NCBI GenBank assembly: GCA_015494715.1
Contig: WGAT01000097.1
Location: 1-46,939 of the forward strand
Length of the DNA stretch: 46,939 nucleotides
DNA from: Campylobacterota bacterium
GTDB lineage: Bacteria; Campylobacterota; Campylobacteria; Campylobacterales; Nitratiruptoraceae
Direction of reading: 5' to 3'
Positions 26,215 to 29,970 of this stretch are shown here, in pieces. The position numbers were made by a program, and so were the translations under genes. Numbering within the stretch: the first letter of the stretch is position 1; each line of letters starts with the position of its first letter. The notes under the pieces were generated by a model. It saw only the letters and a program-made list of their open reading frames with translations, made no database searches and was not told where the DNA came from.

Positions 26215-27765
26215 ATGCAACATGTGCCAATCGTCATTTTGGACTTTGGAAGCCAATATACGCAACTCATTGCCAGACGCCTCAGAGAGGTGGGTGTTTA
26301 TTGCGAGATCTATCCCTATTTTGAGGATATTGACAAGATCAAAGCCAAACAACCCCAAGGCATCATCTTTAGCGGCGGGCCTGCGAGCGTCTACGATCCC
26401 GATGCGCCACGAGTGGACAAAGCTATCTATGCGTTAGGTCTTCCCATTCTTGGAATATGCTACGGTATGCAGCTTATCACCGTAGATTTTGGCGGACAAG
26501 TCATTCGGGCTTTACAGCACGAATATGGTAAGGCAAAACTCTATCTAGATCCCGTCCACGGCCATATATCGCCTCTTTTTGAGGGGACAAAGGATGGACA
26601 GATTGTCTGGATGAGCCATAGCGACAAGGTGGAAAAACTTCCCGATGGATTTGTGCGTATCGCCCATACCGACAACTCCCCTTATGCGGCCATCGCCAAT
26701 GAAGAGCGCCAAATATACGCGTTGCAGTTTCATCCGGAGGTGAGCCACTCCGAGGAGGGGAGCAAGATTTTAGAAAACTTCGCTAGAAAAATTTGTGGAA
26801 TTAAAAGCAAATGGGATATGGGGCATTTTGCCAAAGAGCAGATCGAAAAGATCCGCAAAAAAGTGGGCAGCGATAAAGTGTTGTGTGCTCTTAGCGGTGG
26901 AGTGGATAGCTCGGTAGTGACGGCCCTTTTGTATGAGGCCATAGGTGATCAGCTTATCCCGGTCTTTGTGGATAACGGACTTTTGCGCGAGGGGGAGCGA
27001 GAAAAAGTGGAGCATGTATTTAAAAATATGCTCCAAGTCCCTCTTGTCGTCATTGATGGGAAAGAGAAATTTTTGGAAGCTCTTAAAGGGGTGAGGGATC
27101 CTGAACAAAAGAGAAAAATCATCGGCCACACCTTTATCGAGCTTTTTGACGAAGAGGCCAAAAAACATAAAGATGTTAAGTATCTGGCGCAAGGGACTCT
27201 CTATCCTGATGTAATTGAGTCGGTGAGCGTTAAAGGGCCAAGCGAGACGATTAAGTCCCATCATAATGTGGGGGGACTGCCCGAATGGATGGAGTTTGAG
27301 CTCATTGAGCCTTTGCGGGAGCTTTTTAAAGATGAGGTGCGAAAATTGGGGCTTGAGCTCGGACTTCCTCGTGAGATGGTCTATCGCCACCCCTTTCCGG
27401 GGCCCGGGCTTGCCATTAGAATTTTGGGTGAGGTGACGCCTGAAGCGCTAGGGTTGGTACGAAAAGCCGATACGATTCTTTTAGAAGAGATTAAGGCCCA
27501 CGGGCTGTATGAGAAGCTGTGGCAAAGCTTTGCCGTATTGCTCAATGTACGAAGCGTGGGCGTGATGGGGGATAAACGAACATATGAAAATACGGTGGCT
27601 TTGCGTATCGTAGAGAGTAGCGATGGGATGACGGCTACTTTTGCTCATATTCCTCATGATCTACTAGAGCATATCTCCAATCGTATTATTAATGAAGTGG
27701 ATGGTATCAATAGAGTGGTGTACGATATCACTTCCAAGCCGCCGGGGACTATCGAGTGGGAGTGA
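26215..27765 (+). CDS. guaA: GMP synthase (glutamine-hydrolysing)
   Basis: GuaA converts XMP to GMP using glutamine and ATP. The class I amidotransferase triad is visible as C82 (GICYGMQ), H173 and E175 (QFHPEV). The ATP-pyrophosphatase P-loop is SGGVDSS at 226-232, and the C-terminal dimerisation domain ends with the family-typical [13 protein letters not shown]. The length of 516 residues is standard. AAAGGAA precedes the ATG. The stop overlaps hemD by ten bases. Confidence 0.98.
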
Positions 27766-28391
27766 GAGAGATTTTTATTCTCTCCGAGGCTCAAGTGGAG
27801 GGGGCCAAAAGCCTCCCCCTTATTACCCAACGCTTTTTTACTCTCTCTTTTGATCTTGCGTCCTACGATTATCTTCTTTTTACCTCCAAACGGGGGGTAG
27901 AGGCGATTGAACGCATAACGCACGACTGGAAAAAAGTACCCGCTTTTGCCATAGGGGAGGCTACGGCAAAACATATCCAAGAGCTTGGGGGGGAGGTAGC
28001 GGGGATCGCTAATGGATATGGTGAGAATTTGGTCAAAATGGTGGCACAAATTGCTCCAAAAGGGCGCTATCTCGTAATACGTCCCAAAAAAGTAGCCACT
28101 CCCATAGCCACATTGCTTCGCAAAAAAGGGATAAGAGCCGATGAGGCGGTGCTGTATGAGACGATCTGTCAGGAGTGTCATAAGCTCGAAAAACCGCCTA
28201 AAGGTTCGGTGATTATATTCTCTTCGCCTTCGATTGTAGAGTGTTTCTTGGATTGTTTTGGATGGGATGAGAGCTATAAAGCTGTTGCCATAGGGCAAAG
28301 AACGGCTCAGGTTTTACCCTCTTGCATACGACCCTATATCCCTTTGACTCCGAGTCTAAAAGCGTGTGTGGAATTGGCCAAAAAATTGTAA
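27756..28391 (+). CDS. hemD: Uroporphyrinogen-III synthase
   Basis: HemD cyclises hydroxymethylbilane to uroporphyrinogen III for haem. HemD is poorly conserved, but the two-domain pattern is clear: [61 protein letters not shown] and [11 protein letters not shown]. At 211 residues it is slightly short, as in relatives. The start is uncertain: GTG at 27756 or GTG at 27762, both overlapping the guaA stop, and 27756 is used. A further haem gene is not seen here, but cytochrome b HydC needs haem. Confidence 0.85.
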
Positions 28392-28408: not shown

Positions 28409-28414
28409 TATAAT
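28409..28414 (+). promoter_or_regulatory. -10 box (TATAAT) for the ncRNA before purD
   Basis: A perfect TATAAT ends seven bases before 28421, exactly where the 5' arm of the ncRNA closing stem begins. It lies just after hemD. No -35 element is evident. Confidence 0.65.
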
Positions 28415-28420
28415 TGCACT

Positions 28421-28622
28421 TAGGCCTGAGCGGTGCGCTACCCGCAGTATGGGGGTCCGACAATCGCACTATTGAAGGAGGCCTGTAGCTCTTGGTGTGT
28501 GTCGGCGACTTCGTTTGAGTCGGGGACGCCTGACGAGAAGCCGCCGCCTAATCCAAGACTCGCTCTTTCTTATTTTGGTCTTAGGGACCATGGCATTGCG
28601 TGAACGCCCGCTCGGGCCCTAT
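28421..28622 (+). ncRNA. ssrS: Structured ncRNA, probable 6S RNA
   Basis: About 200 bases without a plausible gene. The ends pair in a long closing stem: 28421-28437 with 28605-28621, 16 pairs with one bulge on each side. The middle holds a terminal hairpin whose loop (28511-28517) is at the centre of the RNA: CGACT (28506-28510) with AGTCG (28518-28522), then GTGTC with GACGC, and further out AGGC with GCCT. Between lie two less paired strands with small hairpins (for example CAAT/ATTG around 28461-28474). This rod with closing stem, central bubble and terminal stem is the 6S architecture, which mimics an open promoter and binds RNA polymerase. Its own promoter, terminator and position next to a purine gene agree. 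I found no sequence match to SRP RNA, tmRNA or RNase P. Confidence 0.6.
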
Positions 28623-28623
28623 A

Positions 28624-28670
28624 AAAAGCAGAGGGGAGAGGAGAGACTCTTTTTCCCTCTGCTTTTGTAC
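28624..28670 (+). terminator. Strong intrinsic terminator after the ncRNA
   Basis: A perfect 12-bp stem, AAAAGCAGAGGG (28624-28635) with CCCTCTGCTTTT (28655-28666), encloses a partly paired 19-base interior. T-rich sequence follows on the plus strand and, because of the A-run, also on the minus strand, so it could act both ways. It ends about 20 bases before purD. Confidence 0.8.
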
Positions 28671-28689: not shown

Positions 28690-29970
28690 ATGGATGTTTT
28701 GGTAGTAGGCGGCGGCGGTAGGGAGTATGCGATAGGTTTGGCGCTTGCAAAAGACCCGGTGGTCAAAAATCTCTACTTTGCTCCCGGAAATGGAGCCACT
28801 CTCCAGCTTGGCCAAAATGTGGAGGCCGACGATTTTGACGCCTTGGCCGATTTCGTTCAAGAAAAGGGGATAGATCTGACTATCGTGGGGCCCGAAGCTC
28901 CACTGGTCGAAGGGATTGTGGACACTTTTCGCAATAGAGGTTTGACTATCTTTGGACCCACCCAAAAGGCCGCTTTGTTGGAAGGTTCCAAGATTTATAT
29001 GAAAAATTTCCTCAAAAAATACAATATCCCAACAGCCCGATATATCGAGACTTCCATCATGGACGAGGCGGCCGAGTTCATCGATGAGCTGGAGCCTCCC
29101 ATCGTGGTCAAAGCCGATGGATTGTGTGCTGGTAAAGGCGTCATTATCGCCCAAACGAAAGAGGAGGCCAAAGAGGCGGCGGCTAGGATGCTAAGCGGCG
29201 AGGCTTTTGGGCCGGCGGGTCAGCGAGTCATTATAGAAGAGTATTTGGACGGATATGAGCTAAGCCTTTTTGCCATTAGTGATGGCAAAGAGTATGTCAT
29301 ACTTCCGGCGGCTCAAGATCATAAAAGGCTTTTGGACGGGGATAAAGGGCCAAATACCGGAGGAATGGGAGCTTATGCGCCAACACCTCTGATCGACGAG
29401 AAACTCTATCGAAAAATAGAGGAGCGTATCATCGCCCCTACCATTGCGGGGATGGGAAAAGATGGGGTCCCTTTTGAGGGCGTTTTGTTCGCCGGGCTCA
29501 TGATCGTAGATGGCGAGCCGTATGTTTTGGAGTACAATGTACGCTTTGGCGATCCAGAATGCGAGGTATTGATGCCTTTGCTCAAAACTCCGGCTTCGGA
29601 GCTTTTTTATAAAGCTGCGACGAAAGATTTGAAAAACTTAAAAGTAGAATTTAAGGAGATGTACGCCGTAGGCGTGGTACTTGCGAGTGCAAACTATCCC
29701 TATGGCAAAAGTAAGCCCAGCGAAATTATCATCGACGATATCGTCCATGAAGATTTGGCCAAACACGCGCATATCTGTTTTGCCGGAGTTCGTTTGATAG
29801 AGGGTAAACTTTTTGCTACGGGTGGTCGAGTCCTCGTTTGCGTGGGAGTGGGGGAGACGATTAAAGAGGCGAGGGATTATGCTTACTTTTTGGCCGGTCA
29901 GATCCATTTTGCCGGTAAAAAATTTCGATCCGATATCGCTTATCAAGCGCTTGAAGTAAATGAATCGTAA
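28690..29970 (+). CDS. purD: Phosphoribosylamine-glycine ligase
   Basis: PurD joins glycine to phosphoribosylamine in purine synthesis. The N-terminal motif is [19 protein letters not shown], with Tyr where His is usual. The ATP-grasp domain shows [35 protein letters not shown], the signature [13 protein letters not shown] and [12 protein letters not shown]. The length of 426 residues is standard. The ATG at 28690 has AAGGAA before it; extending the frame upstream to 28600 would run into the ncRNA and terminator. It overlaps lptD by 11 bases and so begins a purD-lptD-MCE-dnaJ-pnp-spherulin unit. Confidence 0.95.

Follow-up and report, generated by a model that had tools for sequence, protein, structure and literature searches.

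The RNA gene upstream of purD in a Campylobacterota genome very probably encodes 6S RNA, represented in Rfam by a partial 'purD RNA motif'

Binding of the housekeeping RNA polymerase holoenzyme is established for 6S RNA elsewhere. In Campylobacter jejuni, a 185-nt transcript encoded directly upstream of purD (cj1250), which has the architecture of 6S and an antisense pRNA of 13 nt, was reported to be 6S RNA and to be the most abundant non-coding RNA after rRNA and tRNA (Porcelli et al., 2013; PMC3847290). The same authors observed no growth-phase regulation of C. jejuni 6S, given which its physiological role may differ from that in E. coli. According to PMC3847290, H. pylori 6S RNA, with two pRNAs, lies at the same position upstream of purD (Sharma et al., 2010; H. 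pylori 6S is listed in PMC8322730 too), although the genes of the two species differ significantly in sequence and have different upstream genes. The 'purD riboswitch', a purine-riboswitch proposal of Weinberg et al. (2007), is described there as a shorter version of the C. jejuni 6S RNA.

We analysed the orthologous locus in a Campylobacterota genome of 1.69 Mb, using a 46,939-nucleotide stretch of contig WGAT01000097.1 (the window; all features below lie on the + strand). As judged by NCBIfam and Pfam matches, the gene order is guaA (GMP synthase, 26215-27765; NF000848, 821 bits), hemD (uroporphyrinogen-III synthase, 27756-28391; PF02602), the RNA, purD (phosphoribosylamine–glycine ligase, 28690-29970; TIGR00877, 500 bits), an LptD-like protein and an MCE-family protein; the RNA gene with its promoter and terminator hairpin sits between hemD and purD. 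Nitratiruptor metagenome-assembled genomes are among the nearest named relatives by PurD comparison, the closest one at 95%. With a probability of roughly 94%, we regard the RNA as the 6S RNA gene (ssrS) of this genome; it is also the 6S RNA of the phylum. The first-pass annotation had named it a candidate 6S RNA, a proposal now supported by the published C. jejuni and H. pylori 6S RNAs at the purD locus, by the architecture and by covariation. As a separate observation on the neighbourhood, the guaA and hemD reading frames (26215-28391) overlap by 10 bases, which suggests that their expression may be coupled, and the guaA-hemD order is maintained in several families.

The gene has the anatomy of an independent transcription unit. 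A promoter scan returned a -10 box, TATAAT, at 28409-28414, as the first-pass annotation had noted, separated by a 17-nt spacer from a -35-like hexamer, TTGTAA, at 28386-28391 (two promoter-like sites found versus 0.2 expected); the exact TATAAT was present at the same position in 39 of 41 orthologues. The -35-like hexamer overlaps the end of hemD, whose stop codon falls within it. Downstream of the RNA, an intrinsic terminator hairpin (28624-28666) has the perfect 12-bp base that had been claimed for it and reaches 20 pairs when G-U pairs are counted; its predicted folding energy of -30.6 kcal/mol (z -5.7) was equalled by none of 200 shuffled sequences. This hairpin is preserved in the two closest relatives (L072 and L073), in one of which, L073, a G-C pair is replaced by A-U in a compensatory change, and it is weaker or absent in the distant relatives examined. 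A T-run directly 3' of the closing stem was found in 20 of the 41 loci and may end transcription at those loci. We ruled out that the hairpin stems from a repeat or mobile element, as it is single-copy in the genome.

The full-length covariance model described below (R1) matched the RNA at 28422-28618 with 160 bits, and we infer the exact 5' end to be at about 28421-28422. The resulting length of ∼197 nt bears out the earlier estimate of a rod-like RNA of about 200 bases and, with a promoter and an end of its own read from the sequence, agrees with 6S RNAs of about 160-200 nt. The copy is thus longer than the 185-nt C. jejuni transcript, from which it also differs by its separate 20-bp terminator hairpin. 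From its ends inwards, the predicted rod has a closing stem, then an internal loop and a short second helix; beyond the central bubble comes the terminal arm, which is long and interrupted. In P1, the closing stem (5' arm 28424-28437, 3' arm 28605-28617), 13 pairs form and one U (28434) is bulged; the 16-bp stem described previously was therefore roughly right, the remainder of the closing arm being a separate 6-bp helix (CGCAGU at 28443-28448 with AUUGCG at 28595-28600) that prolongs the rod beyond the internal loop. The terminal arm, an interrupted stem with an apical loop, occupies 28474-28569. As a whole the RNA folds at -85.8 kcal/mol, compared with -72.8 ± 4.6 kcal/mol in shuffled sequences (z -2.8; 1 of 200 shuffles folded as well).

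To evaluate this structure comparatively, we aligned 41 full-length loci from eight of the 12 families of our phylum sample (alignment A1), and scored the pairs of the consensus structure together with a cross-bubble helix discussed below. Standard pairs filled 94.0% of cells, compared with 77.1% after shuffling, a control that leaves relatedness in, and with 35-48% when partners were slid along the alignment, a control that keeps relatedness and under which the slid structures still fell far short. Two-sided changes were seen in 27 of the 37 pairs, and the covariation score was 0.593 versus 0.279 in shuffles. The closing stem alone was 97% paired, with 8 of its 13 pairs changed on both sides; the compensatory changes that the first-pass annotation had proposed to look for in relatives are thus abundant, and their absence, which would have spoken against 6S RNA, was not observed. 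Likewise, the terminal arm contains three covarying helices (86-97% paired), and the second helix of the closing arm reached a mean score of 10.3, whereas permuting its partners 300 times gave 8.8, and at most 9.7. Consensus pairing within the large central bubble is limited to the cross-bubble helix and a hairpin on the 3' side.

Database searches gave a different label. Searching the window at the threshold set by Rfam gave no RNA matches beyond one tRNA and RF01069, the 'purD RNA motif' (28485-28617; 85.7 bits, gathering threshold 41; full model, 1-125); a permissive scan added only chance-level matches. RF01069 begins 63 nt inside the RNA and spans just its 3' two-thirds. Neither the closing stem nor the bubble has its 5' strand in the model, and the 3' end, including the 3' arm of the closing stem, is shown as unpaired for want of the opposite strand. 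A single match to the motif was obtained in each of 191 genomes out of 200 from Campylobacterota; the 14 controls gave none. A significant match to another RNA family had been considered grounds for abandoning the 6S assignment, and such a match exists; yet the family in question corresponds to a shortened epsilonproteobacterial 6S RNA (PMC3847290). The option of a new RNA class lapses.

The generic 6S model, RF00013, by which the first-pass annotation had suggested checking its proposal, had no match in the source genome or in any of 101 Campylobacterota genomes sampled, whereas the controls (E. coli, B. subtilis and three others) were positive. We attribute this failure to the model and not to a defining biological feature, since the C. 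jejuni 6S RNA was identified experimentally. Being negative across the whole phylum sample, RF00013 is uninformative as a test of identity, and a search relying on it alone would have misled. The missing match, together with the fact that a rod shape is not unique to 6S, could be taken to favour a different structured RNA that acts independently of polymerase and resembles 6S in outline only. We consider this highly improbable: the C. jejuni and H. pylori orthologues are reported as 6S, with matching locus, size, pRNA and structure (PMC3847290; H. pylori 6S is listed in PMC8322730 as well), and the RF01069-type RNA was the only 6S candidate seen in the phylum sample, with no second one found.

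Model R1, built from the 41 loci of alignment A1, recovered eight of the nine genomes that RF01069 had missed, so that most of the gaps lie in the Rfam model and not in biology. The exception was a nearly complete genome (G174), in which R1 had no match. A short, low-scoring R1 match (30.5 bits) was also noted upstream of purD at 278-432 of record HM_EPSSYM (L106); this locus and the G174 genome possibly represent reduced, diverged or unassembled 6S genes. Applied to the E. coli ssrS locus, R1 found its best match there from 2 nt past the annotated start to 4 nt short of the annotated end, but with a weak score (8.8 bits, E 0.0037 for 784 bases). The place is correct, and the score is too weak for stand-alone proof. 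The RNA shares with RF00013 and E. coli ssrS the closing stem, the central bubble, the terminal arm and pairing potential in the 3' bubble strand; as a counterpoint, a sequence-model link to RF00013 is absent, and E. coli 6S is tied to this RNA by a weak model score.

Rfam types RF01069 as cis-regulatory ('Cis-reg'), which would make the RNA a leader of purD, i.e. a purine-sensing riboswitch or attenuator whose terminator hairpin is switched by purine levels. The RNA does immediately precede purD at nearly all loci examined, as in C. jejuni and H. pylori; PurD begins no more than about 150 nt away at the majority of the 41 (for the four others, longer flanks gave confirmation), and neighbouring guaA is a purine gene too. 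However, in all five genomes tested of one Nautiliaceae-like family (f5: G004, G006, G028, G039 and G040), the RNA is found behind guaA-hemD while purD is elsewhere, 194, 135, 122 and 153 kb away in G004, G028, G039 and G040, respectively, and on a different contig in G006. In G006 the next sizeable downstream gene is on the opposite strand and belongs to the ACPS family; in G040 and G028 the next genes after the RNA encode HD-domain and PAS-domain proteins. R1 had no match at the purD loci of these five genomes, which align to Nautiliaceae records over about 1,300-2,500 bases at 72-81%, nor upstream of purD in any retrieved record labelled Nautiliaceae. An RNA that persists although purD lies on a different contig or at a distance of > 120 kb is no leader of that gene, and we rejected this explanation, now very remote, on these unlinked loci. 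Further points against it are that the covarying closing stem starts upstream of the Rfam motif, that the published C. jejuni transcript is discrete and very abundant (PMC3847290) and that the strong terminator hairpin is not common to the more distant relatives examined. As to individual records, the Nautiliaceae-like 6S RNA in L123, L124, L126, L135 and L136 (at about 1501-1673 in each) still lies behind guaA-hemD, purD having moved away, and a Nautiliales record (L118) retains an RNA match upstream of purD.

The RNA itself is not new, but an ordinary, well-conserved 6S gene; what our analysis adds is that its database label misleads, that some loci lack purD and that a helix spans the bubble. 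Just one database model detects the 6S RNA of this phylum, and as it spans two-thirds of the molecule and names it a purD cis-regulator, automated pipelines will probably give the wrong name to a global transcription regulator when such genomes are annotated. The Nautiliaceae-like loci, which have no purD beside the RNA, speak cleanly against calling it cis-regulatory, and a model to replace RF01069 is supplied by the full-length alignment.

As its anatomy shows, the RNA has a sigma-70-type promoter and a terminator of its own. By analogy with established 6S biology, its rod would imitate an open promoter and bind the housekeeping RNA polymerase holoenzyme, keeping it off DNA promoters. When nucleotides return, the polymerase would copy a short pRNA from the bubble, whereupon the bubble would rearrange and the polymerase be released. 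Pairing potential across the bubble may bear on the rearrangement step. Folding and covariation predict a cross-bubble helix between GGUCC at 28454-28458 on the 5' side and GGACC at 28585-28589 on the 3' side; all five pairs can form in 39 of the 41 orthologues when a small shift is allowed, whereas permuted partners, in a permutation that ignores relatedness, did so in 25 on average and in 32 at most. The pairing types include GGUCC, GGUUC, AGUCU, AGUUC and others. The Rfam alignment and sequence inspection point to an alternative local hairpin on the 3' bubble side, UGGUC-UUAGG-GACCA (28576-28590), and since the 3' strand is common to both, the two structures would compete. It is plausible that this competition is part of the bubble rearrangement.

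In B. subtilis 6S-1, pRNA synthesis leads to a 'central bubble collapse helix', in which the distal 5' bubble pairs with the 3' strand of P2 (PMC8876501). The Campylobacterota RNA is similar in that pairing shuts the central bubble and in that a 3' bubble hairpin is also present. It differs in that the 5' and 3' sides of the bubble pair with each other, and do so already in the predicted ground-state fold. A stronger reading, that binding and release of the polymerase are switched in a lineage-specific way by the conserved cross-bubble helix in competition with the 3' hairpin, unlike in the E. coli and B. subtilis schemes, appears rather unlikely to us.

Finally, the internal loop between the two helices of the closing arm (28438-28448/28595-28604) reads GCGCUACCC / GCGUGAACGC. 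This loop is near-identical in very distant loci, e.g. L045, L123, L124, L129 and L130, though not in most genomes of families f2 and f3; it may act as a defined tertiary motif or touch the polymerase.
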